A DNA stretch of 64,000 bases from a virus: the IMG/VR virus record IMGVR_UViG_3300013111_000325, positions 1 through 64,000 of that record. The stretch is one strand, 5' to 3'. Each line of letters starts with the position of its first letter. Positions within the stretch are counted from its first letter, which is position 1. This document shows, piece after piece, positions 896 through 63,686 of this stretch. The notes beneath the pieces are model-generated. The model worked only from the letters and a program-made list of their open reading frames with translations, did not search any database and was not told the origin of the DNA. The position numbers and the translations under genes are program-made.

Positions 896-1297
896 ATGTT
901 AAAATTTACAGATTTTTTCGATGGAAAAATAGAAGAACCAGTAGAAGTAGATCCTCATTCGGGCGATCCTCTTGATGAAAGAGTTCTTGGCGTCCAAGAT
1001 CGAATGAAACTTTCTCGTAGAATGAAACGTTTTCAACATAGAATACAGAGAAAACGGAAAATCCAAATGAGAAGAAAAGCAGATTCAGGTAGACTACAAA
1101 AAAGAGCAAGAAAAGGTGCCAGAAATGATATGAAAAAGAGAGTTTCTGGAGGTAAATCTTATAGAAAAATGAGTTTTGGTATGAAAAAAATGATAGATCA
1201 AAAGTTAGAAAATAAAGCAAAACAAAGTGCTATCAAAAGATTTACAAAAAGAAAAGTAAAGGATAAACGTAAACTAGACATTGCGAGAAGAAAATGA
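896..1297 (+). CDS. Highly basic protein in the gp68 (prohead core) position
   Basis: 133 residues. The N-terminus is short and acidic, followed by a long Lys/Arg-rich region (residues about 35-133, with runs such as RRMKRFQHRIQRKRK and GKSYRKMSFGMKKM). It overlaps the protease gene by 4 nt (ATGA), implying coupled translation. T4 gp68 is a similarly sized prohead core protein directly upstream of gene 21, which supports the same role by synteny. The extreme positive charge would also fit a DNA- or scaffold-binding core protein. No sequence match to gp68 is claimed. Confidence 0.6.
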   Translation: MLKFTDFFDGKIEEPVEVDPHSGDPLDERVLGVQDRMKLSRRMKRFQHRIQRKRKIQMRRKADSGRLQKRARKGARNDMKKRVSGGKSYRKMSFGMKKMIDQKLENKAKQSAIKRFTKRKVKDKRKLDIARRK

Positions 1298-1938
1298 AAT
1301 TAATTACAGAAATTAATGAGGATCTTGAATACGTTATTGAAGGTACAGGAAATAATAAAAGTATGTACATCAATGGTGTATTCATGATGAGTGAGACAAA
1401 AAATCGCAATGGAAGAATTTATGGTAAAGATATTTTATTCAATGAAGTAAATAGATATCGTAAAGAATATGTAGATAAAAATAGAGCATTTGGCGAACTC
1501 GGACATCCAGAAGGACCTACAATAAACCTTGAGCGAGTTTCGCATATGATTAGAGAACTAAAAGAAGACGGAAATAATATTGTAGGTAAAGCGAAAATTA
1601 TGGACACACCTTATGGTAACATTGTCAAAAATTTGATTAATGAAGGTGCCAAGTTAGGTGTATCTTCAAGAGGTATGGGTTCTCTTGAAGAAAAAGGTGG
1701 TGCTAACTATGTCAAAGATGATTTTTATTTGGCGACCGCCGCAGACATTGTAGCAGACCCTTCTGCTCCCGATGCGTTTGTTGATGGTATTATGGAAGGT
1801 AAAGAGTGGATTTGGGATAATGGTGTGGTTAAAGAGGCCACTATCGCAAAGATTAAAGAAAGTATTAAGAGAAGTCCTGCTTCTAATCTTGATAATAACA
1901 AGTTGAAAGCATTTAATTCTTTTCTTTCTAAACTTTAG
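1294..1938 (+). CDS. 21: Prohead core protease, T4 gp21 family
   Basis: Serine-type maturation protease that digests the scaffold and trims head proteins at (I/L)-x-E sites inside the prohead. The 214 residues match T4 gp21 in length (212). Visible active-site blocks in order are GELGHPEGP (His), GVSSRGMGS (Ser) and DIVADPSAPDAFV (Asp). The extreme N-terminus contains an ITE (residues 4-6) that may be a self-processing site. Position between the core proteins and the scaffold is exactly as in T4. Confidence 0.93.
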   Translation: MKLITEINEDLEYVIEGTGNNKSMYINGVFMMSETKNRNGRIYGKDILFNEVNRYRKEYVDKNRAFGELGHPEGPTINLERVSHMIRELKEDGNNIVGKAKIMDTPYGNIVKNLINEGAKLGVSSRGMGSLEEKGGANYVKDDFYLATAADIVADPSAPDAFVDGIMEGKEWIWDNGVVKEATIAKIKESIKRSPASNLDNNKLKAFNSFLSKL

Positions 1939-3311: not shown

Positions 3312-4700
3312 ATGTATTTGTCTGAACAACTACAAAAAAAATGGGGTCCAATTCTTGAGCACCCAGATTTGGGTAATATCAAGGACCCATACAAGAGAGC
3401 AGTAACAACTCTCTTGTTAGAAAACCAAGAAAAAGCACAGAGCATGGACAATGAAGTCTTGTCTTCACAAAACTTCTTGACAGAAGCGGGTTTTGGTGCT
3501 GGTACAATGCCAGATACACCTGCCGCTCACACGGCAGCCGGTGGTGGTCACGTTGCAAAATTTGACCCAATTCTCATTTCTCTCGTAAGAAGAGCAATGC
3601 CTAACTTGATTGCATATGACATTTGTGGTGTGCAACCAATGACAGGTCCTACTGGTCTTATTTTCGCAATGAGATCTAAGAAAGGTTCTGGTTCAGGTAG
3701 TGAAACATTCTACGATGAAGTAACACCAGCATATTCAGGTAATACCAATACAACTGATACAACTTCATTGAACCCAGGTCTTATGATTGTTGCTAATGCT
3801 TCTGCTACAGGTGGTGGTGCTGGTAACACATCTTATCTTGACACTGGTGGTCCTATGGAAACCGCTAGAGCAGAACATTTGACACCTGCTAATATGTCTT
3901 TCAGTATCGAGAAGTTGAGTGTAACTGCTAGATCAAGAGCATTGAAAGCAGATTACACAATGGAAGTCGCCCAGGATCTTAAAGCCGTTCACGGTCTTGA
4001 TGCTGAAACAGAACTTTCCAACATTCTCTCAGCAGAAATTCTTGCTGAAATTAACAGAGAAGTTGTACGTAAGATTTACGGTGAAGCAAAAATTGGCGCA
4101 CAACATAACACAACCGCCGCTGGTATTTTCGATCTTGACACCGACTCTAATGGTCGTTGGTCTGTTGAAAAATTCAAGGGTCTCATGTTCCAGATTGAGC
4201 GTGAAGCAAACGCTATCGCAAAAGACACACGTAGAGGTAAAGGTAATATCATCATTACTTCTTCTGATGTTGCTTCTGCATTGCAAATGGCTGGTGTTCT
4301 TGATTATACACCTGCTCTTGATAGCAATAACATTAGCCCAGATGACACAGGCAATACTTTTGTTGGTGTTCTTAATGGTCGCTACAGAGTGTATATCGAT
4401 CCATATGCAGTAGCCAGTTCCACAAACTGGTTCGTAGTAGGTTATAAAGGTTCTTCAGCATATGATGCTGGTATCTTCTACTGCCCATATGTCCCATTGC
4501 AAATGGTACGTGCGGTTGATACTAATACATTTCAACCAAAAATTGGATTTAAGACTCGCTATGGCATGGTCAGAAATCCATTTGCCCAAGGTTCAACAGC
4601 CAGAAGTTCAGTTGCCGGTTTTGATATCGGTGGTGATGATACTACATCTGTACAAAGCAACGTCTACTACAGACTTGTTCGTGTAAATAACTTGATGTAA
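3312..4700 (+). CDS. 23: Major capsid protein, T4 gp23 family
   Basis: 462 residues (T4: 521). It forms the hexameric shell after proteolytic removal of the N-terminal propeptide. The sequence NFLTEAGFG carries a good gp21-type site, cutting after Glu58 (L-T-E|A), close to the T4 cleavage at residue 65. The body contains capsid-typical stretches such as PNLIAYDICGVQPMTGPTGLIFAMRSK and a Gly-rich insertion near residue 170. AGGAG lies just before the start. A strong terminator follows the stop, isolating the head operon. Confidence 0.95.
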   Translation: MYLSEQLQKKWGPILEHPDLGNIKDPYKRAVTTLLLENQEKAQSMDNEVLSSQNFLTEAGFGAGTMPDTPAAHTAAGGGHVAKFDPILISLVRRAMPNLIAYDICGVQPMTGPTGLIFAMRSKKGSGSGSETFYDEVTPAYSGNTNTTDTTSLNPGLMIVANASATGGGAGNTSYLDTGGPMETARAEHLTPANMSFSIEKLSVTARSRALKADYTMEVAQDLKAVHGLDAETELSNILSAEILAEINREVVRKIYGEAKIGAQHNTTAAGIFDLDTDSNGRWSVEKFKGLMFQIEREANAIAKDTRRGKGNIIITSSDVASALQMAGVLDYTPALDSNNISPDDTGNTFVGVLNGRYRVYIDPYAVASSTNWFVVGYKGSSAYDAGIFYCPYVPLQMVRAVDTNTFQPKIGFKTRYGMVRNPFAQGSTARSSVAGFDIGGDDTTSVQSNVYYRLVRVNNLM

Positions 4701-6506: not shown

Positions 6507-7550
6507 ATGTATGATATATTGATAATGACAGGATCATCATTAGATCCTGCTGATGGTGGTACAATGGGTGGTACTGAAAGACAAATTCTTTCCGTTGCCG
6601 AATCATTGGCACACGAAGGTTTAGATGTTGCAATAGTACATTCTATTACAGATGGTACTGATAAAGTTATTAATGGAGTAAAACATTTGAATACCTATAG
6701 ACATTATTATGATTATTCTAAAGTAAGATTGATGGCAAATCATTTTGGATATTCTGGTAATTTTCACAGAAACTATACTATGAGTAATGTTCATGTACCT
6801 CCAATGTCACCTATTGAAATGAATTGTGCAGAAAAAACATATTGTTGGTTTCACAACTGGTTTCATCTTTCTAATAATGATTATCCTAGAATTTTTAATT
6901 CTAAAGCGGTAGCAAAATATGTTTATGAACAAAATCCTTTTAGTCACATGGTAAAAAAATTACCTGATGATAAAGTAATTTACTATATGATTCCTAAAGG
7001 ACTAGTCGTACAGCCACAAGAAAAAAGACAGGATTATTTGTTCTGGATGAGTGCTTTCGGTAAAGGCATGAAAGAAGCAATTTTAATGTATATTTCTTTG
7101 TTTGAGAGAGGCTTGACTAAAAGACCTTTCCACATTGCAATACCACCGCAAAGAGACAGAAAAGATGTAGAAGTAGTAGAAAAAATGTTAATAGATGTGA
7201 ATAAGAATGGATATCCTATAAGATTTTTTGGTGAGATGAAGTATGCTGATGCATTGACTAAATTAAGTAAAGCCGCCTGTCTTTTTCGACCTGGATTACC
7301 TCAAGAGACATTTGGACTTGTTTACTTAGAAGCAAATCAATTAGGTGTTCCTGTTCTCACATATAAGGGTGATGCAGGAGAAGAAATTTTACAAGATAAA
7401 CACAATATGTTAATAGATAAACATCACAAACTACAAGACATATCGAACTGGTTAATAGATATAGACGAGCAAAAAACAACAGTAGACATGAGCAAATTTG
7501 ATCCAGATAGAATAAAGAAACAGTGGATTAAATTGATAGAAAATGCATAA
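6507..7550 (+). CDS. GT4-type glycosyltransferase
   Basis: 347 residues with a GT-B arrangement. The N-terminal GGTMGGTERQILSVAESL is the donor/acceptor loop and first helix typical of family GT4. The C-terminal half has FRPGLPQETFGLVYLEANQL with the conserved E-x7-E pattern, then GVPVLTYKGDAGEEIL. It begins directly after the uvsY stop and its stop overlaps the uvsW ATG (TAATG). It probably modifies a surface or virion glycan; the substrate is unknown. No other evidence of DNA glucosylation is seen here. Confidence 0.8.
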   Translation: MYDILIMTGSSLDPADGGTMGGTERQILSVAESLAHEGLDVAIVHSITDGTDKVINGVKHLNTYRHYYDYSKVRLMANHFGYSGNFHRNYTMSNVHVPPMSPIEMNCAEKTYCWFHNWFHLSNNDYPRIFNSKAVAKYVYEQNPFSHMVKKLPDDKVIYYMIPKGLVVQPQEKRQDYLFWMSAFGKGMKEAILMYISLFERGLTKRPFHIAIPPQRDRKDVEVVEKMLIDVNKNGYPIRFFGEMKYADALTKLSKAACLFRPGLPQETFGLVYLEANQLGVPVLTYKGDAGEEILQDKHNMLIDKHHKLQDISNWLIDIDEQKTTVDMSKFDPDRIKKQWIKLIENA

Positions 7551-9430
7551 TGCTATACGAACATGATACACTGCTCATAGACAAAAAGAATGAAGTGTTC
7601 ATGACGGTGCAAGCCGAACCTGGACTCGCAAGAGAATTGAGTGATTTTTTTACATTCTTTGTTCCAGGATATCGTTTCATGCCATCATATCGAAATAAGA
7701 TATGGGATGGTAAGATACGACTTTATAATCTACAAAACAAGTATCTTTATAGTGGTCTCATAGACTATGTTGAGAAGTTTGCTTCAGAACGTGAATATAA
7801 GATAGACTACAAAACAAATCCAAAAAACGTAAATGGTTATAATGAGAATGACTATGAAAGACTTGTGCGTTCTCTCAATCTTGAAATAGAACCACGAGAT
7901 TATCAGAGAGATGCATTTCTACATTCAATCAATAATGAACGTGCATTGCTACTCTCACCAACCGCATCTGGTAAATCTCTTATCATATATTTGTTGCTAC
8001 GGCACTATCAAATGAGATTGACAAATTTTAAGGCAATTGTTATAGTACCTACTACATCTCTCGTGGCACAGATGAATTCTGATTTTGCAGACTATGCAAA
8101 GAAAGATCGTTGGAAAGTTGCAGAAAATACACACATGATTTATTCAGGTCATGATAAAGTATCTGACAAACCTATATTCATATCAACTTGGCAATCACTT
8201 TATAAAATGCCTCTCAGTTATTTTTCAGATTTTGATGTAATTATAGGAGATGAATGTTTATCACCTGATACTGATATTATAATGAAAGACGGATCGTTTA
8301 AAAAAATAAAAGATATTTGTGTTGGTGATTATGTAAAAACATACAATGAAATATCAAAAGAAATAGAAAACAAACCTGTATTGAAAGTCCATAAAAATAT
8401 ATCAATAAAAGAAAAAATGTATGAAATAACATTGGATGGAATTAATAAAATTCAAATTACAGGTAATCATAAAGTCCTATTAACCAATGGAGTATGGAAA
8501 CGGGCTGATAGTCTTAAAATAGGAGATCGTATAAAAGGTTCAATAGTTACCTCAATAGTAGAATGTGCTCCTACTGATGAAGTCTATAATTTACACATTG
8601 AAGATAATCACAACTATTTCGCTAATGGTATTGTAGTATCAAATTGTCACCAATTTAAAGCGAAATCTCTGACTGCAATTATGGAGAAGGCGGTCAATAC
8701 CAAATATCGTTTTGGTACAACTGGAACACTTGACGGCACACAAATACACCGTCTTGCATTGGAAGGATTATTTGGACCTGTTTATAAAGTCACGACAACA
8801 AAGAAACTGATTGACAACAAGACACTATCACAGTTTGAGATCAAAGCATTGGTCCTGCAATATTCAGATGAGACATGTAAAGCACTCAAAGGAGCAAATT
8901 ATCAAGAAGAAATAGATTTTCTTGTATCAAATGAGAAACGAAACAACTTTATACGCAATTTAGCACTCAGTCTAAATACTAATACATTGATATTATTTCA
9001 ACTGGTTGAGAAACACGGTAGAATTCTATATAAGTTAATTAAGGATAAAACGAATGAACGACCAGTCTTTTTCGTCTATGGAGGAACCGACACAAACGAC
9101 CGAGAGCAAATTAGAGGAATCGTTGAACGAGAGTCCAATGCCATTATTGTTGCGAGTTACGGCACTTTTTCTACTGGCATCAATATTACTAATCTTCATA
9201 ATGTCATTTTTGCTTCCCCATCTAAATCTCGCATAAGAAATTTACAAAGTATAGGAAGAGGATTGAGAAAGAATGAACAAAAAAATATTGCGATATTATA
9301 TGATGTTGCCGATGATCTATCTTATAAGTCTCATAAAAACTACACTCTTAACCATTTCATTGAACGTATCAAAATATATAATGAAGAACAATTTGAATAC
9401 AAAATTCTTACAATACCAATCGGAGAATGA
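7550..9430 (+). CDS. uvsW: UvsW recombination helicase, interrupted by a mini-intein
   Basis: 626 codons: N-extein residues 1-235, intein 236-365, C-extein 366-626. The spliced 496-residue helicase is close to T4 UvsW. It is a 3'-5' superfamily 2 helicase that migrates branches and unwinds R-loops, helping move T4 from origin to recombination-dependent replication. Motifs: SPTASGKS (Walker A), the DECH box split by the intein, GTTGTLDG (motif III region) and QSIGRGLRKN (motif VI). Without splicing the DECH box is broken, so activity should depend on it. A downstream gene starts 1 nt after the stop. Confidence 0.93.
   Translation: MLYEHDTLLIDKKNEVFMTVQAEPGLARELSDFFTFFVPGYRFMPSYRNKIWDGKIRLYNLQNKYLYSGLIDYVEKFASEREYKIDYKTNPKNVNGYNENDYERLVRSLNLEIEPRDYQRDAFLHSINNERALLLSPTASGKSLIIYLLLRHYQMRLTNFKAIVIVPTTSLVAQMNSDFADYAKKDRWKVAENTHMIYSGHDKVSDKPIFISTWQSLYKMPLSYFSDFDVIIGDECLSPDTDIIMKDGSFKKIKDICVGDYVKTYNEISKEIENKPVLKVHKNISIKEKMYEITLDGINKIQITGNHKVLLTNGVWKRADSLKIGDRIKGSIVTSIVECAPTDEVYNLHIEDNHNYFANGIVVSNCHQFKAKSLTAIMEKAVNTKYRFGTTGTLDGTQIHRLALEGLFGPVYKVTTTKKLIDNKTLSQFEIKALVLQYSDETCKALKGANYQEEIDFLVSNEKRNNFIRNLALSLNTNTLILFQLVEKHGRILYKLIKDKTNERPVFFVYGGTDTNDREQIRGIVERESNAIIVASYGTFSTGINITNLHNVIFASPSKSRIRNLQSIGRGLRKNEQKNIAILYDVADDLSYKSHKNYTLNHFIERIKIYNEEQFEYKILTIPIGE
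8255..8644 (+). mobile_element. Mini-intein (130 residues) in the DECH box of UvsW
   Basis: Begins with Cys1 (CLSPDTDIIMKDGSFKKIKD, block A) and has a block B TGNH (T-x-x-H). The end YNLHIEDNHNYFANGIVVSN is blocks F/G, with Cys as the first C-extein residue. Removing it rebuilds GDE-CHQF, the DECH helicase box. There is no homing endonuclease domain, so it is a splicing-only Hint domain near the minimum known size. The penultimate residue is Ser instead of the usual His. Boundaries are exact if standard Cys/Asn-Cys chemistry applies. Confidence 0.92.
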
Positions 9431-31933: not shown

Positions 31934-32500
31934 ATGTTATCGTTTAATACATACATTACAGAGTCTAGTCTTTCCAGAATTATGACCCATGTAGAGAAAA
32001 CAGAAAATTTTGGTGTAATGTCACCTTTTAGAAAAGAATTTTCTAATAAAGAAAATCTTGAGCGTTATAAAGAACTCAAAAAAATAGTCAGAGATAATGG
32101 TTATGGTTTTATTGAAATGAAAGGCGGTTATCAAGAAGAAGATGGATTTGTTAATGAAAAATCTTTATTTATTCCTAATATTAGACAAAAAGAAATGATA
32201 GAGTTGGGTAAGAAATATGACCAACATTCAGTAATTATAAAGGATAGACAAACCTTTGCAATGATAGGTACAAATAAAAGTGCAGGAATTGGTAAAGTAT
32301 TAGATAAATTTGATGTGAAAGGAAGAAATATTACCATAGATGATGTTGGGAATAAATTTAAAGATTTCTTTTCTCGTCTACTGAAGGGTTCTCATAGAGG
32401 AAAAAAATTCTTATTTAAAATGCAAGAAAAAAATGAAACAAGTATGTATTATTATAAAAAACATGGGCCCCAATGGGTTACCATTTTAGAAGAGGATTAA
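31934..32500 (+). CDS. DUF3293-like protein with a capsid-targeting-like N-terminus
   Basis: 188 residues. The start MLSFNTYITESSL resembles the T4 internal-protein signal (M-x-x-[YF]-x-x-F/Y-I-x-E), with a candidate gp21 site I-T-E|S after Glu10. The segment KGGYQEEDGFVNEKSLFIPN, then KKYDQHSVIIKDRQT, is similar to DUF3293 proteins. If cleaved, the protein would be packaged and injected. The function is unknown. It overlaps no neighbour and is followed directly by the peptidase. Confidence 0.6.
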   Translation: MLSFNTYITESSLSRIMTHVEKTENFGVMSPFRKEFSNKENLERYKELKKIVRDNGYGFIEMKGGYQEEDGFVNEKSLFIPNIRQKEMIELGKKYDQHSVIIKDRQTFAMIGTNKSAGIGKVLDKFDVKGRNITIDDVGNKFKDFFSRLLKGSHRGKKFLFKMQEKNETSMYYYKKHGPQWVTILEED

Positions 32501-40034: not shown

Positions 40035-41273
40035 ATGCAGAGTTTCAAACAATTTATAAATGAAGAAAAGAACTTACATCTAGAACACATAGAAGATGAA
40101 GTTCTCAACAATGGAGTAGATGGCACACGGCAAGCAATAAACTTTCTCAGAGGTTTGAGAGATATGCTTGCTGGTTCATCAAAAAGCGGAAAGCAGGTTC
40201 GCATCACCGTAAAATGGGATGGTGCGCCTGCTATTTTTGCAGGAATTAATCCTGAAAATAATAAGTTTTTTGTTGGTACAAAAGGAGTTTTTGCAAAAAC
40301 TGCAAAACTTAATTATACTCCGGAAGATATCGATAAAAATCATCCTGCTGAAGGGTTAAATAGAAAACTCAAATTAGCACTTGAGTATTTGCCTGAATTG
40401 GGTATACAAGATGTCGTACAAGGAGACATGATGTATAGTCAGGAAGATCTACAGGATGAAACGATTGATGGTGAAGAATATTTGATATTTAAACCAAATA
40501 CTATTGTTTACGCAATACCTAAAAATAGTGATTTGGCTAAACAAATATCAATATCAAAAATGGGTATTGTATTTCATACTAGATATTCAGGTGATAGTTT
40601 ACCCGAAATGGATGCCAATTTTGATATTGATGTTTCTCAAATGACACAAACACCGAATGTTTGGTTTAGGGATGCAGAATATGAAGATGTAAGTGGTACG
40701 GCATCTATGACTGAGAAAGAAACGGCACAAATAACAGGAATTCTATCGGGCGCTGGAAGATTATTTAGACAATTAAATCCGAATATACTTAAATATATTC
40801 AAAATCATAAGGACGTGAATATACAAATTAAAGCATACACAAATACGAAAATACGAGAAGGGCGTCCGATAGAAAACCCTGATGCACATGCAAGAGGATT
40901 GATAGTTTATCTGAAACAAAAATTTGAAAAGGAACTCAATAAATTAAAAACCGAAAAAGCAAGAATAAGAAAGCAACAGGCACAAAGAGAATTTTTGAAG
41001 TTTTTTCAAACAAACATAAGACAATTATCACAAATATTTGAAATGCAAAATATGTTAATTGCATGTAAAATATTGATATTGAGAAAATTAGAGCAGGTTA
41101 AAACATTGACAAAAACTTTTATTCAAGATGACGATGGTTTTAGAGTGACAAATCCAGAGGGGTTTGTTGCAGTAGATAAGTTAAAATCTGACCAGTATGT
41201 GAAACTGGTAGATCGTCTTGAATTTTCAAGACAAAATTTTAATGCCGCCAAAAACTGGTCAAAGGGAGCATAA
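40035..41273 (+). CDS. KxDG ligase-like protein with capsid-targeting-like N-terminus
   Basis: 412 residues. The core VRITVKWDGAPAIFAG (Lys60 in KWDG) is motif I of ATP-dependent DNA/RNA ligases and capping enzymes. FVGTKGVFAKT, VVQGDMMYSQ and ARGLIVYLKQK are reasonable later motifs of the adenylation fold. The start MQSFKQFINEEKN mirrors the T4 internal-protein signal, with a gp21-type site I-N-E|E after Glu10. Together they suggest an adenylating enzyme packed in the head. The C-terminal third is helical. Substrate and activity unproven. Confidence 0.65.
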   Translation: MQSFKQFINEEKNLHLEHIEDEVLNNGVDGTRQAINFLRGLRDMLAGSSKSGKQVRITVKWDGAPAIFAGINPENNKFFVGTKGVFAKTAKLNYTPEDIDKNHPAEGLNRKLKLALEYLPELGIQDVVQGDMMYSQEDLQDETIDGEEYLIFKPNTIVYAIPKNSDLAKQISISKMGIVFHTRYSGDSLPEMDANFDIDVSQMTQTPNVWFRDAEYEDVSGTASMTEKETAQITGILSGAGRLFRQLNPNILKYIQNHKDVNIQIKAYTNTKIREGRPIENPDAHARGLIVYLKQKFEKELNKLKTEKARIRKQQAQREFLKFFQTNIRQLSQIFEMQNMLIACKILILRKLEQVKTLTKTFIQDDDGFRVTNPEGFVAVDKLKSDQYVKLVDRLEFSRQNFNAAKNWSKGA

Positions 41274-41666
41274 ATGTTAAAACAAGAAGAGCAATTGCTT
41301 GAAACACTTAATGGTAAAATGATCGATATCACTTTATCCGAAGGTGTAGATACACGATTAAGAAGATTAGCCACTCAAGGTCTTATTGCAAAAGATGAAC
41401 TTGCGTTATTCACAAAACTCATAAAAGATCTTGATGATGGTAAATCACCTACGTTGCCACAACGTATGATGGTAATGAGAGTTTTTGACAAACTTCTGAA
41501 ACTCATAATGGATAATAAAGAAGTGTATCAGAGAGTTTTGCAGACTGTTAAAAAGGATAAAAAAGTGAAAAAAGAAGCATTCGAAGCCACACATACTATC
41601 GTTGAACACAACGGAAAAAGATTTGTCATTGACGAAAATGAGCAATTAGTTCCTTATAATGGATAA
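41274..41666 (+). CDS. Hypothetical protein
   Basis: 130 residues, starting right after the previous stop. Helical, with a repeated-hydrophobic region (LRRLATQGLIAKDELALFTKLI and PQRMMVMRVFDKLLKLIMDN). The last 25 residues include EHNGKRFVIDENEQLVPY. No catalytic motif. It sits between two enzymes that may be virion cargo and could be a partner of either. Not recognised. Confidence 0.6.
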   Translation: MLKQEEQLLETLNGKMIDITLSEGVDTRLRRLATQGLIAKDELALFTKLIKDLDDGKSPTLPQRMMVMRVFDKLLKLIMDNKEVYQRVLQTVKKDKKVKKEAFEATHTIVEHNGKRFVIDENEQLVPYNG

Positions 41667-43986: not shown

Positions 43987-46900
43987 ATGTTAAATACACT
44001 TCATGACGGACCATTTACTCAGATGAAAGAACAGGGAGATATCCATGTTCATCATTATCAAAAGGGAGAAAATCCTGACGATAAAAAGAAAAAAGAGAAA
44101 GAATCCAAAGCCAATGGTAACGGAAACGGCAATGGTGCTCCTGCAAACGGAAACGGCAATGGTGCTCCTGTAGAAGCAGAGGCGGCTCCTCCCCCTCCTG
44201 AGGATAAGGGTAATCCATTGGCTAAATTTTCAAAAGACGAAGTGAAGCGTATTAGAGATATTCTTAAAAAAGATAAAGAGGAAAAAGAACCAGAGAAAAA
44301 ATTATCAAATAAAAAAGATAAGGTCAATACTAAACCTAAAATGAAAGATACCGAAGTAAAAGAAATGTCCGCTGACCTAGCATACAGAGCAATGGATAAA
44401 GCGGATAAGAAAAGTAGAGGGGAAATGTCAGTGATGGATCCCAAAAGAGCAAGAAAAAAAGCAAGACAATCACGAAAATTTGCTGATTATTCTATCAAGA
44501 AAACTCTTAAAGGTGAAGAGTTTGAATATGCACATAATCAAGCACTTGAAGAAAATGCTAAAAGAGATATAATGGCTTTTGGTGCAAAACTTAAAGGGTA
44601 TTCCGATAGAAGTGGCGGTATTGATAAAGACTATTTTAACAAAATTGCAAATACTGCATTAAGTGGTCGTATGCCTGATAAAAGAGATATTGATGGTGAT
44701 ACAGATCCAAGAGATTTTGTATTAGATATGATGAATCGTACATTTCCAAAAGCAACAATGCAAAACTATGCAGGAATTTCTCCATCACTTGATCAATATT
44801 TACGATCAACAACAGGTGTAAAAACACACGTTAGTCAAAATCTTAAAAGAAGTGTAACAGTTCCTGAAGAAGTTGAATTAGACGAAGTAGAATCAGACTA
44901 TGCAAAAGAAATAGAAGCATTTAAAGCACAAGGAGGAAAGATTAAAAAATTACCTCCAGGAAAAAAATTTAAAAGTAAATTTAGTAAAGTAAAAGGTCCG
45001 AAAAAACTTCCAATACAAGCAGAAGATGCTGAAATTGAAGAAAATGTAGCATACCTGAAAAATAAAGAAGGACACGTTTTTCATATTTCAAAAAGAGATA
45101 AAAAAGGTGATGCTTATTCAATGCATGTAGCCGATTCAAGTGGAAAGAAAGTTAAGGATTGGGGTTCACATCCTTCTCTAAGTGGAGCAAAGAAATTTGC
45201 AAGTAAACGAGGATTTACAGAAGAGGTTGATTTTGAGGAAGCCTATACAATGCATAAAGGAATGAAAATAAAAAATGTTCCACGTTCAGCAGGTAAAGAT
45301 GCAGTAGAATATAATAAAAAAAGAAGAGAAGCACAAAGAAAAAGAGCAGGTCTTGATGAAGCAAAAAAACCAAACCTGACAGCCGGAATGGAATGTCAGG
45401 AATGTGGTAAGAAATTTCGTGCTAAACTTTCTACATTACAATATGGAAAGACAAAATGTCCAAAATGTAAAAGCACCGATTTGGATTTTGCATTTGGTGC
45501 AAAAAATGAGAGTAGTGTAAATGGTATTGTTGAGGGATATCAAAAAGCAGTATTGCTCAGTTTGGATGATGCAGGAATTGACGGACATTTTGATAGGGAT
45601 AAAGTGGTTGTTGCAAAGAGAGATGTAGAAAGAGCCAAAGAAGTTTTGGATAATGACCCAGATATAAGGAGAACTCCAAAGATTGTTGGGGAAGAAGTTG
45701 AAACTGTTTATGAAGCAAGAAAATCTGATTATCAAATCTATCATAAAGATTTCTCTTCTGCTATGCAACATGCATATGCAGTTGCAAAGAAAAGGGGATA
45801 TACAGTCGATCCACAAGAGATTGACAACAAAGTTGCAACAGGTCCAAGAAAACCTTCTAGCGGTAAAACAAATCGTTATATCCTAGGTACGGACAAGAAG
45901 CAAAACTTACATGTCCAGGTTGCAAACCTAGATAACAAACGATACGAACTCAATATGTATATTGAGGAAGTAATTCCAGAGGAGACTAAAATGATTCCAA
46001 CAAATGAGAAAAAATTGGATCCTGTCGGTCAAGAAGATGGTGATGTTGATAATGATGGTGACAAGGATTCATCTGATGATTATCTTATGAAACGCAGAAA
46101 TGCAGTTAAAAAAGCAATGGGTAAGCGTAAGACAGGTATGAAAGAAGAGCATCAACTCAATACGATGACTGATGGTGCTTTCACAACTGCCGATATGCTT
46201 GCACAAACATATCTTTCTATGTCTCGTGATGAGCAAATTCAAGTGACGGAAGTTACTAATGAAGATCTTAAAAAAGAAAATATTGACGAAGTTGAATCCG
46301 CATATGCGAAACAAATTGCTGACTATAAAGCCAAAGGTGGAACAGTTAAGAAATATACTGGTCCTAACATGAAAAATGTCAAGAGAGCAACTTCAGGTTT
46401 TAAGAAAAAACTTGCAAAGACTAATAAAATCGTTGCTCAGGAACTTGAAAAAGTGAAAGCGGAAAAAGAGGCTAATAAGCAACAGGATGAGGCTTGGAAA
46501 AAAGGGACTTATCATGTAAAAGATGCAGATGGTAAAATACATGGCACATATAAATCCGGAAAACATGCTTCTAAAGCAATGCATAAACTCATGGATAAAG
46601 GTGGTCATAAAGAATTAGAAGTATCAAGGGCTAATGAAGAAGTCTCAAAGAATGTCGGCAAATTAAATAAAGTTCTGGAGAATAGAAAACTTGAGCGTAA
46701 TAAAGTTGTTGTGGATGGTCAAGGTGGTGCAGGTGAAGTAGGTACTGACGAACTTACAAAAAAATATCAGGAAGTTACGCCAGGACAACCAAAAGAGTTG
46801 ATCAGAGAAAGTTCAGTTGTTATTAATAGTCAAGATATGTTTAAGAGATTTGAGGACATGGTGAGTTATATGATGGGTATTTCTGTAACACATCCTGAAA

Positions 46901-47229
46901 GTTTTCAGATGTTTCCGATTGGTGAATCTGGTAAAATGAGATTAGAATATGAACATGGACCTCTTGCTACAATTTGTGAAACAGATGTTATCAATTTCTT
47001 TGGACCAAACGTTGACATGGAACAATTTGTAGAAATGGTTAAAGAATTTGGTGTAAATGTCACAACGGCAGATAATTCTTTTGTTGTAGGAGACACACCA
47101 GGTACTGAAGGTATAGTCAAAGAAATTACACCTGGACAATATGCCGAAGAGTATGCAAAAAAGTATACCACAGGAGGCATGATGGATCAAATGAGAGCAA
47201 ATATTGAAGAACTTGCTAAGAGAATTTGA
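43987..47229 (+). CDS. Very large multi-module protein, probable virion protein
   Basis: 1080 residues, charged and modular. It has a GN-repeat/Pro linker (residues about 40-75), two copies of a DEVES-x-YAK-x-I-x3-KA-x-GG module (near 300 and 770), and a zinc ribbon CQECGKKF...CPKCKSTD (near 480). It also has an EF-hand-like DVDNDGDKDSSDDYL (near 690) and LNTMTDGAFTTADML, echoing the N-terminal MLNTLHDGPFTQM. Marine phages carry similar repetitive virion proteins. The high Lys content would suit a DNA-bound internal protein. No enzyme motif is seen. Confidence 0.65.
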   Translation: MLNTLHDGPFTQMKEQGDIHVHHYQKGENPDDKKKKEKESKANGNGNGNGAPANGNGNGAPVEAEAAPPPPEDKGNPLAKFSKDEVKRIRDILKKDKEEKEPEKKLSNKKDKVNTKPKMKDTEVKEMSADLAYRAMDKADKKSRGEMSVMDPKRARKKARQSRKFADYSIKKTLKGEEFEYAHNQALEENAKRDIMAFGAKLKGYSDRSGGIDKDYFNKIANTALSGRMPDKRDIDGDTDPRDFVLDMMNRTFPKATMQNYAGISPSLDQYLRSTTGVKTHVSQNLKRSVTVPEEVELDEVESDYAKEIEAFKAQGGKIKKLPPGKKFKSKFSKVKGPKKLPIQAEDAEIEENVAYLKNKEGHVFHISKRDKKGDAYSMHVADSSGKKVKDWGSHPSLSGAKKFASKRGFTEEVDFEEAYTMHKGMKIKNVPRSAGKDAVEYNKKRREAQRKRAGLDEAKKPNLTAGMECQECGKKFRAKLSTLQYGKTKCPKCKSTDLDFAFGAKNESSVNGIVEGYQKAVLLSLDDAGIDGHFDRDKVVVAKRDVERAKEVLDNDPDIRRTPKIVGEEVETVYEARKSDYQIYHKDFSSAMQHAYAVAKKRGYTVDPQEIDNKVATGPRKPSSGKTNRYILGTDKKQNLHVQVANLDNKRYELNMYIEEVIPEETKMIPTNEKKLDPVGQEDGDVDNDGDKDSSDDYLMKRRNAVKKAMGKRKTGMKEEHQLNTMTDGAFTTADMLAQTYLSMSRDEQIQVTEVTNEDLKKENIDEVESAYAKQIADYKAKGGTVKKYTGPNMKNVKRATSGFKKKLAKTNKIVAQELEKVKAEKEANKQQDEAWKKGTYHVKDADGKIHGTYKSGKHASKAMHKLMDKGGHKELEVSRANEEVSKNVGKLNKVLENRKLERNKVVVDGQGGAGEVGTDELTKKYQEVTPGQPKELIRESSVVINSQDMFKRFEDMVSYMMGISVTHPESFQMFPIGESGKMRLEYEHGPLATICETDVINFFGPNVDMEQFVEMVKEFGVNVTTADNSFVVGDTPGTEGIVKEITPGQYAEEYAKKYTTGGMMDQMRANIEELAKRI
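44119..44170 (+). repeat. Tandem 25-nt repeat inside coding sequence
   Basis: AACGGAAACGGCAATGGTGC plus TCCTG occurs twice with a 2-nt gap, encoding the NGNGNGAP linker. It can expand or contract in multiples of 27 without frameshift. Confidence 0.9.
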
Positions 47230-47722
47230 TCAACCACAAATTTATTGCGATATGGACATGGTGTTAGTCGATTTCTTAGGAGGAGCGGCCAATGCTCTTG
47301 GTGTTGATTTTCGTGAAGCTAATAGAAAAACACGTTGGTCTATTTTAGATAATCAACCTGATTTCTTTTTCAATCTTCCACCAATGCCAGATTATAAAGT
47401 CTTGTGGAATTTTATACGAAAATTTGATCCATACATATTGACAGCCGCCCCAAATTCTAGTTTTGAGAAGGCGTCAATAGATAAAAAGAAATGGTGTAAA
47501 AAATATCTTAAAATAGATGAGTCAAGAGTATATACAGTGCAGAGACAGGATAAAAAACACTTTGCAATTGACGGAAGAGATGGTCGAGCAAATATATTGA
47601 TTGATGACCATCCAAAAAATGTTAAAGAATGGAGAGATAATGGTGGTATAGGTGTCTTACATACACCTTTTAATGCAAAAAATTCTGTTAAACAATTAAT
47701 TAATATTGGATTTGGGAGATGA
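47204..47722 (+). CDS. HAD-superfamily 5'-nucleotidase-like phosphatase
   Basis: 172 residues. The nucleophile block IYCDMDMVLVDFLGG (D16, D18 from the TTG start), YILTAAP (motif II Thr) and ILIDDHPKNVKEW (Mg-binding Asp) match the small 5'(3')-deoxyribonucleotidase group. It may dephosphorylate deoxynucleotides or salvage intermediates. No ATG lies before the catalytic block, so a TTG (47204 or 47213) is the likely start, inside the end of the preceding gene. Confidence 0.75.
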   Translation: MKNLLREFDQPQIYCDMDMVLVDFLGGAANALGVDFREANRKTRWSILDNQPDFFFNLPPMPDYKVLWNFIRKFDPYILTAAPNSSFEKASIDKKKWCKKYLKIDESRVYTVQRQDKKHFAIDGRDGRANILIDDHPKNVKEWRDNGGIGVLHTPFNAKNSVKQLINIGFGR

Positions 47723-62447: not shown

Positions 62448-63686
62448 ATGGACGATATTCAGTATATTCTGAATACTTTTTTGTTATTATTTTCTGGTGT
62501 GCTTGTTTTTTGGATGGCCGCTGGATTTGCAATGTTAGAATCAGGATTGGTGAGGACGAAAAATACGACCGCAATCCTAACTAAGAATGTTTGTTTATAT
62601 GCTCTTAGTTGTCTAGCATTCCTCGCATGTGGTTATTATCTCATGTATGGAGCCATGTCGGATGGAGACCATGCAGGGACCTCTGACTTCTTTTTTCAAG
62701 TAGTCTTTGTCGCAACAACCGCATCTATTATTTCAGGAGCAATAGCAGAACGAATGAGGTTTTGGTCATTTATGGTTTTTGTTCTTGTACTTTCCGCAAT
62801 CATATATCCTATGCAAGGAGCCTGGACATGGGGTGGGGGATTTCTATCTGAGATGGGGTTCTCTGACTTTGCAGGATCTACAATTGTTCATTCAGTTGGA
62901 GGTTGGGCCGCACTTGCTGGTGTTCTATTATTAGGTGCCAGATCAGGTAAGTATACTGATGACGGAAAAATTAACTTGATTCCCCCTTCAAATCTTCCAT
63001 TAGCAACTTTAGGAACAATGATTCTTTGGTTGGGGTGGTTTGGTTTTAATGGTGGTAGTCAATTGGCAATGGCTACTAAAGCAGATGTAAATGCTATTGC
63101 AAGTGTGTTTGTAAATACAAATATTGCCGCCTGTGCTGGCGCTATTACTGCTATGATTTTGACTCAACTGTTATATAAAAGAGTTGATTTGACGATGGTA
63201 TTGAATGGTGCATTAGCAGGACTAGTTTCTATTACTGCAGGTCCTGATTATCCTACTATGTGGTTAGCAACTGTTATAGGAATAATTGGAGCAGGATTAT
63301 GTGTACTAGCAATCCCTATGTGGGATAAACTAAAAATTGATGATCCGGTAGGAGCATTGTCTGTTCATTTAGTTGCTGGTATATGGGGAACATTAGCAGT
63401 AGGAGTGTTTAATCATGAAGTAAGTTTGATGTCGCAAATACAGGGCATTTTAATTATTGGAGCATTTGTTTTTGGCTCTAGTTTTGCAGTTTGGTATGTT
63501 ATTAAACTAGCAATGGGACTCCGGATTTCTTTGGAAGAAGAAACTCAGGGTATTGACATTGCTGAATTTGGTCATTCTGCTTATACGATAGGTCATGGTG
63601 AATTTGTTACTCATGACGAAATTAAATTAGGTAGAGGAACATTTGTTCCTGAAAGTGAACAATCTCTTAATTTGGTATCAAATTGA
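62448..63686 (+). CDS. amt: Ammonium transporter AmtB
   Basis: 412 residues with about 11 membrane segments. A GGAAGGAG site selects ATG 62448 over an upstream TTG. The Amt signature DFAGSTIVHSVGGWAALAG contains the first pore His, and VHLVAGIWGTLAVG the second, so the twin-His pore is intact. The cytosolic tail GLRISLEEETQGIDIAEFGH keeps the conserved GlnK-contact pattern. It moves ammonium across the host inner membrane. This is an auxiliary metabolic gene that would raise nitrogen supply in infected cells. TGA overlaps the next start. Confidence 0.96.
   Translation: MDDIQYILNTFLLLFSGVLVFWMAAGFAMLESGLVRTKNTTAILTKNVCLYALSCLAFLACGYYLMYGAMSDGDHAGTSDFFFQVVFVATTASIISGAIAERMRFWSFMVFVLVLSAIIYPMQGAWTWGGGFLSEMGFSDFAGSTIVHSVGGWAALAGVLLLGARSGKYTDDGKINLIPPSNLPLATLGTMILWLGWFGFNGGSQLAMATKADVNAIASVFVNTNIAACAGAITAMILTQLLYKRVDLTMVLNGALAGLVSITAGPDYPTMWLATVIGIIGAGLCVLAIPMWDKLKIDDPVGALSVHLVAGIWGTLAVGVFNHEVSLMSQIQGILIIGAFVFGSSFAVWYVIKLAMGLRISLEEETQGIDIAEFGHSAYTIGHGEFVTHDEIKLGRGTFVPESEQSLNLVSN

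Follow-up and report, generated by a model that had tools for sequence, protein, structure and literature searches.

Does a marine T4-like phage load a ligase-like enzyme into its head, and deliver it into the host together with its DNA? The question is posed by a gene encoding a protein of 412 amino acids in a 64,000-nt stretch of viral DNA (the window), which is a portion of a 116.9-kb virus contig. The contig carries T4-type genes, with a prohead protease-scaffold-capsid block at its start, UvsX, a gp41-type helicase and a DNA polymerase, and the gene in question lies directly after uvsX and the gp41-like helicase. Its boundaries are exactly those given in the original prediction, and the coordinates of the features are collected in Table 1. 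Elsewhere in the window a UvsW-like helicase reading frame (7550-9430) has an intein-like interruption (DECLSPDTDIIMKDG ... HNYFANGIVVSNCHQ), and the phage carries an ammonium transporter (AmtB-like) gene at 62448-63686. A phosphoenolpyruvate carboxykinase-like P-loop reading frame (MLPMHCSAFEY...GLSGTGKTTLSADP; contig about 87125-88354) is unusual for a phage.

The 412-amino acid protein is a full-length member of the Pfam family DUF6267 (PF19782), with E = 2.2e-112 over residues 13-406 and 376.6 bits against a curated cut-off of 27, spanning positions 1-376 of the profile. It also belongs to PHROG 455. By tblastn DUF6267 was found in 464 phage records, mostly those of cyanophages, with relatives outside that group in Methylophilales phage Melnitz (49%), Pelagibacter phage HTVC008M (42%) and Stenotrophomonas phage DLP6 (42%). 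The name DUF6267 is absent from the literature that we searched. The cyanophage protein corresponds to T4-GC71, which adjoins the cytidylyltransferase T4-GC190. Family and gene order are the same in the present phage, but the T4-GC71 copies examined lack the leader that is found here. Adjacency of DUF6267 to a cytidylyltransferase/NMNAT-like gene is near-constant, and in S-PM2-type phages DUF6267 is fused to a cytidylyltransferase-like protein, for which any final model must account. Several phage records and three viral scans supplied the 141 non-redundant DUF6267 proteins compared below, of which 138 were aligned.

Table 1. Positions of the DUF6267 gene, its predicted elements and related features in the window. 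A slash marks a cleavage site, here and in the text.
Feature	Position	Strand	Basis
DUF6267 protein, probable ligase-type covalent nucleotidyltransferase behind capsid-targeting-like leader	40035..41273	+	Pfam, PHROG
Leader MQSFKQFINE (residues 1-10); gp21 predicted to cut after E10	40035..40064	+	Outside Pfam domain 13-406; T4-like
Motif I K60-W-D-G, predicted nucleotidyl-lysine	40212..40223	+	Invariant, 138 sequences
K83 in F-F-V-x-x-K, candidate motif Ia	40281..40283	+	Invariant; side by side with T4 Rnl1 KSKG
Q129-G-D131, candidate motif III, Asp replacing usual Glu	40419..40427	+	Invariant; strand 127-135
P-N-T-I-V-Y (154-159), candidate motif IIIa region	40494..40511	+	Y159 invariant, P-N-T-I nearly so
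Helical domain, residues about 227-353, between candidate motifs IIIa and IV	40713..41093	+	AlphaFold2 secondary structure; shortened in S-SM1 homolog
Motif IV E375-G-F-V	41157..41168	+	Invariant E, G and V; in register with T4 Rnl1 EGYV
K390-L-V-D-R394, candidate motif V	41202..41216	+	K390 and R394 invariant
Small protein between DUF6267 and nucleotidyltransferase genes	41274..41666	+	Pfam/PHROG: no match below E 0.05
NMNAT/cytidylyltransferase-like partner, 766 aa	41678..43978	+	PF01467 4.4e-5; PHROG 3041 2.1e-65
Large protein rich in Lys and Glu, same cluster; perhaps an internal head protein	43987..47229	+	Position and composition only
HAD phosphatase, NT5C type, start codon uncertain	47228..47722	+	PF06941 4.3e-6
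SAM lyase-like protein (PF23780/DUF3293), leader MLSFNTYITE/SS	31934..32497	+	PF23780 1.3e-8; leader
Probable prohead protease (gp21-like), enzyme expected to cut the leader	1294..1938	+	Precedes scaffold and gp23 genes; sequence
FLTE/AG maturation site of gp23-like capsid protein, internal yardstick	3474..3485	+	Same place as T4 gp23 FLTE/A

The original prediction saw a KxDG adenylation motif in VKWDGAPAIFAG. The motif is indeed encoded there, and K60-W61-D62-G63 is invariant in the 138 aligned relatives, which extend down to 31% identity. The other invariant positions are N13, H15, H18, E20, G27, G30, P65, G70 and P73 in the N-terminal part, F78-F79-V80, K83, Q129-G130-D131, Y159, H181, Y184, N270 and K345 in the middle, and E375-G376, V378, K390, R394, F397 and N401-F402 in the C-terminal part. 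Motif I, an Ia-like motif, and motifs III, IV and V of the ligases and capping enzymes can thereby be recognized as invariant and in order. The hallmarks of the covalent nucleotidyltransferase superfamily (DNA/RNA ligases and capping enzymes) that are present are KxDG with its conserved lysine, an acidic residue in motif III (Asp rather than Glu) and EG.V in motif IV. K390 would provide the first lysine of the KxK of motif V; the second lysine is absent, and there is an invariant R394.

T4 RNA ligase 1 (Rnl1, or RnlA; PF09511) shares this order, in which K-x-D-G is followed by a lysine-containing motif Ia (ILFKSKG in Rnl1, FFVGTKG in DUF6267) and by EGYV (EGFV in DUF6267) and then a lysine. 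The stretch of the present protein compared with Rnl1 over motifs IV to V is EGFVAVDKLKSDQYVKLVDRLEFS. Yet the two have no significant sequence or profile similarity, and DUF6267 differs in its Asp for Glu in motif III, the lack of KxK, the helical domain preceding motif IV and the N-terminal leader. RNA repair, performed in T4 by Rnl1 and the polynucleotide kinase PseT, is the likely common job.

An AlphaFold2 model built with the 138-sequence alignment (pLDDT 89.2, pTM 0.86) has a beta-rich core, an all-helical insert (residues about 227-353) and then the strands of motifs IV and V, and the ligase motifs lie on or beside core strands. The homolog in S-SM1 (locus L326, 42296-43270) has only 324 amino acids, yet its match to the Pfam model covers the full length; part of DUF6267, probably the helical insert, is therefore dispensable. 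When the PDB was searched with Foldseek, DNA or RNA ligases or capping enzymes made up 24 of the first 50 matches, which are not independent of one another. These were NAD+-dependent or ATP-dependent DNA ligases, T4 Rnl2, Naegleria Rnl, Pnkp/Rnl and a capping enzyme. The best E-value for a ligase was 0.65, and no PDB fold was matched by the full model at E <= 0.001. In BFVD there were, beyond DUF6267 itself, weak matches to capping enzymes, NAD+ DNA ligases and a T4-type RNA ligase. Residues 12-226 modeled alone gave no significant fold match; RNA editing ligase 1 ranked 14th, and ATP-citrate lyases, which are ATP-grasp relatives, were also returned. Ligases are almost gone from the match list once the C-terminal strands are removed.

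No significant similarity emerged when profiles were compared with T4 Rnl1 (33 relatives), Rnl2 (30 relatives) and E. coli LigA, and phmmer and profile searches of PDB sequences returned chance matches only. The C-terminal piece ranked T4 Rnl1 first among 77 T4 ORFs with motifs IV to V in register, at low probability. On scanning 86 DUF6267 members against Pfam, NCBIfam and PHROG no ligase family was encountered except PF09511, once, at E = 0.017. The four DNA/RNA ligase families PF09511, PF09414, PF01068 and PF01653 (RNA_lig_T4_1, RNA_ligase, DNA_ligase_A_M and DNA_ligase_aden) have no profile match in the contig or in four complete genomes (Melnitz, HTVC008M, S-SZBM1 and S-PM2), T4 serving as positive control for the PF09511 search. 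DLP6 has a DNA ligase besides DUF6267. The proposal of a ligase-like enzyme is partly supported, the motifs being invariant and in order, while the comparison with structures of ligases and capping enzymes yielded an enrichment and no significant match to fold or profile. It is on motif invariance and fold enrichment, and not on a significant match, that the reading is based. Because the PDB matches are enriched in ligases with none significant, we regard the case as strong but not proven, and consider that DUF6267 is probably a ligase-type covalent nucleotidyltransferase.

The other element of the original prediction was a capsid-targeting-like peptide at the N-terminus. The protein does begin MQSFKQFINE, with the (I/L)xE site of T4-type internal proteins, and its identification as a capsid-targeting sequence is well supported. 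T4 ipII and ipIII (MKTYQEFIAE/A) and Alt (MELITELFDE/D) also have ten-residue leaders, that of DUF6267 being very close to ipII and ipIII. The gp23-like protein of the phage itself has the site QNFLTE/AG, compared with FGSFLTE/AE in T4 gp23, and four virion-detected cytidylyltransferases discussed below bear the same leader. The capsid-targeting sequence is the sole common feature of the T4 internal proteins, which form a varied tagged set (PMC3012670). The cargo in IPI, IPII, IPIII and Alt comprises small inhibitors or an ADP-ribosyltransferase, whereas DUF6267 is ligase-like, with packaging and cleavage predicted. No ligase-like cargo is described among T4-type internal proteins in the literature searched.

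Residues 1-10 are disordered in the AlphaFold2 model (pLDDT < 50). A stringent leader pattern, M-x(0-4)-[FYL]-x2-[FYLM]-[IL]-x-E, is present in 71 of the 141 DUF6267 members (e.g. MKFTEYLTE/S, MFAFSEFLTE/Q and MYSFKQYLNE/A) and in 50 of 848 other ORFs of the same loci, for which the Fisher p of about 3e-36 is overstated because the sequences are related. Many of those 50 neighbors are cytidylyltransferases, kinases or HAD proteins. The pattern also fits UvsX of this phage and an overlapping spurious ORF, so that it is not proof on its own. F..[FY][LI]xE is kept over much sequence change, and neither the leader nor the K60-W-D-G motif is a product of chance. About 26 of the 141, known cyanophages included, have a leaderless form (MAKNTHLE or MSKNTHLE), and a third form of MFSFKGFITKEKN type keeps the aromatic pattern and lacks the Glu. 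A form MFSFKGFxTxx without the cleavage Glu, seen at three loci and others, could be an uncut or decayed leader. One phage with a Glu-less DUF6267 leader keeps the Glu site in gp23 (YLAE/A), and the leader there is therefore probably uncut. On a quick tree of the 141 sequences the three N-terminal states need 9 changes. DUF6267 proteins with no leader, or with one that lacks Glu, are common, so the core job of the family does not depend on packaging.

Published virion proteomes bear on the function of the leader. Cytidylyltransferases have been detected in purified virions of S-SM1 (PMC3037559), S-SZBM1 (PMC9146016), S-CREM2 (PMC10665884) and S-SCSM1 (PMC9602691), and the T4-GC190 cytidylyltransferase is a virion protein (PMC3037559). 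All four of the virion-detected proteins have the leader, i.e. MKKFSAFLNE/A, MRFRQFIIE/A, MKNFSSFLTE/A and MKSFLQFLKE/A respectively. The S-PM2 cytidylyltransferase was not detected in virions (PMC3037559), and is fused behind a leaderless DUF6267. The leaderless DUF6267 of S-SZBM1 (MAKNTHLE) is absent from the virion list of that phage, in which the downstream gp140, gp139 and gp136 are present; virion proteins 139 and 136 have no leader. The authors of two of the virion papers caution about possible contamination by such enzymes. In the literature we found no detection of DUF6267 from any phage in virions, and no proteome of a leader-bearing phage. S-SCSM1 ORF90, a 'virion protein' encoded just upstream of NMNAT, was rejected as a virion DUF6267, having no family match, and no DUF6267 copy is apparent beside the cytidylyltransferase gene of S-CREM2. 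Given the leader on the virion-detected cytidylyltransferases, and the leaderless proteins of S-PM2 and S-SZBM1 that went undetected, the leader acts like a tag for packaging in these phages. It is likely to work for packaging in the clade of the present phage.

Further proteins of this phage bear the leader. Beside the SAM lyase-like protein of Table 1 there is, beyond the window, a CCA-adding tRNA nucleotidyltransferase (contig 76386-78020; L302:12386-14020) that begins MIKFSSFLTE/TA. It matches PF01743 (2.9e-17) and PF12627 (5.6e-17), and its best solved relatives are CCA-adding enzymes (4e-19). Over its final 145 residues it matches the phosphodiesterase domain of fungal tRNA ligase (PF08302) at 1.8e-4, just below the curated cut-off, and this phosphodiesterase-like C-terminus has two HxTx motifs. 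Seven viral-contig relatives of the protein have the leader and at least five lack it; among the DUF6267 genomes searched, few have the CCA-adding enzyme. In relatives, leader-bearing P-loop kinases lie near the CCA-adding gene or beside DUF6267 at five loci, and leader-bearing HAD phosphatases near DUF6267 at three. No PNK-type kinase was seen in this contig. Ligase, kinase and cyclic phosphodiesterase are united in one chain in yeast Trl1, and the tagged phage proteins suggest the same activities, but on separate proteins; the likeness is one of function only.

Directly before the CCA-adding gene a 487-amino acid leader-bearing protein (contig 74926-76386; L302:10926-12386) is encoded, with no match in Pfam or NCBIfam. 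Another locus (L322, 910-5840) has at least six short ORFs starting MKSFKQYITE or similar beside a leader-bearing CCA-adding enzyme, a run that resembles the T4 internal-protein cluster. We discarded a nuclease encoded at contig position 71.2 kb as a leader-bearing protein, its VKSFKSFFTEE stretch being internal. In the DUF6267 cluster itself, the 766-amino acid NMNAT-like protein starts MRLKDLHE/K, a short possible leader. The Lys/Glu-rich product of 1080 amino acids has repeated VELDEVESDYAKEIE-like segments, and it is possibly a polyprotein from which the prohead protease would release internal head proteins. A SAM hydrolase is reported in S-CREM2 virions, and anti-restriction via injected SAM-destroying enzymes may be common to S-CREM2 and this phage.

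We propose that K60 would take up a nucleotidyl group, most likely AMP, and pass it to a polynucleotide end, most likely in sealing an RNA break. In this clade the first ten residues would draw the protein into the prohead, the phage prohead protease would trim it after E10, and it would stay in the head with the DNA and then be injected. Its injected partners would be the CCA-adding/phosphodiesterase protein and the NMNAT-like nucleotidyltransferase, joined in relatives by P-loop kinases and HAD phosphatases. Before phage gene expression, such a set could repair RNA, tRNA first of all, that defense nucleases of the host have broken. T4 repairs host-cut tRNA later in infection, using PseT and RnlA. 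RNA is somewhat the better candidate for the substrate, compared with DNA or something else. For the whole reading, a virion-delivered ligase-type enzyme, probably an RNA ligase, within an RNA-repair and counter-defense set, we estimate a probability of roughly 0.4-0.45. A wider scheme is more doubtful: a marine and freshwater T4-like branch might carry in its virions, under one cleavable leader, an RNA-repair set (ligase-type DUF6267, CCA-adding/cyclic-phosphodiesterase enzyme, kinases and HAD phosphatase) plus SAM lyase, countering anticodon nucleases and restriction before the first phage transcript.

The same enzyme might instead act only in the infected cell, in DNA replication or late RNA repair, with a leader that is neutral. 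The location of the gene just after uvsX and the gp41-like helicase is consistent with this, as are the leaderless forms that are the rule in the cyanophages examined, the lack of Glu in some relatives and the missing S-SZBM1 protein. Yet the leader lies outside the domain in a disordered segment whose pattern is kept despite sequence change, and virion-detected neighbor proteins bear the same leader; we consider the explanation unlikely, if a serious one. If the enzyme is delivered in the virion, its target might not be broken RNA, but rather ends or nicks in the DNA of the incoming genome, some protein, or a small molecule linked to NAD, with the NMNAT-like partner taking part. RNA is indicated by the CCA-adding/phosphodiesterase protein of this genome, and the C-terminal motif match, though weak, is to T4 RNA ligase 1. 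A non-RNA target is favored by the many NAD-dependent DNA ligases among the fold matches and by the association with the cytidylyltransferase, both fused and adjacent, but seems to us rather improbable.

It is very improbable that the protein is an internal head protein, structural or catalytically dead, with no more than a resemblance to ligases. All 138 aligned sequences, with identities as low as 31%, keep K60, D62, G63, K83, D131, E375, G376 and K390, and without catalysis such conservation would be difficult to account for, even if the deviations in motifs III and V, the lack of significance in the fold search and the structural-type proteins of the cluster would be in keeping with such a role.

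The DUF6267 family, virion-delivered internal proteins and phage RNA ligases are each already known separately; a virion-delivered ligase or RNA-repair set was not found in the freely accessible literature searched. DUF6267 is present in hundreds of marine phages without an assigned role. Should it prove to be a ligase, the complete genomes among those checked that seem to be ligase-free would possess one after all, belonging to a new family. Should the leader work, the proteins injected by a large group of phages abundant in the ocean could be predicted by simple rules on sequence, and RNA repair would stand beside anti-restriction among the counter-defenses that a phage brings ready-made.
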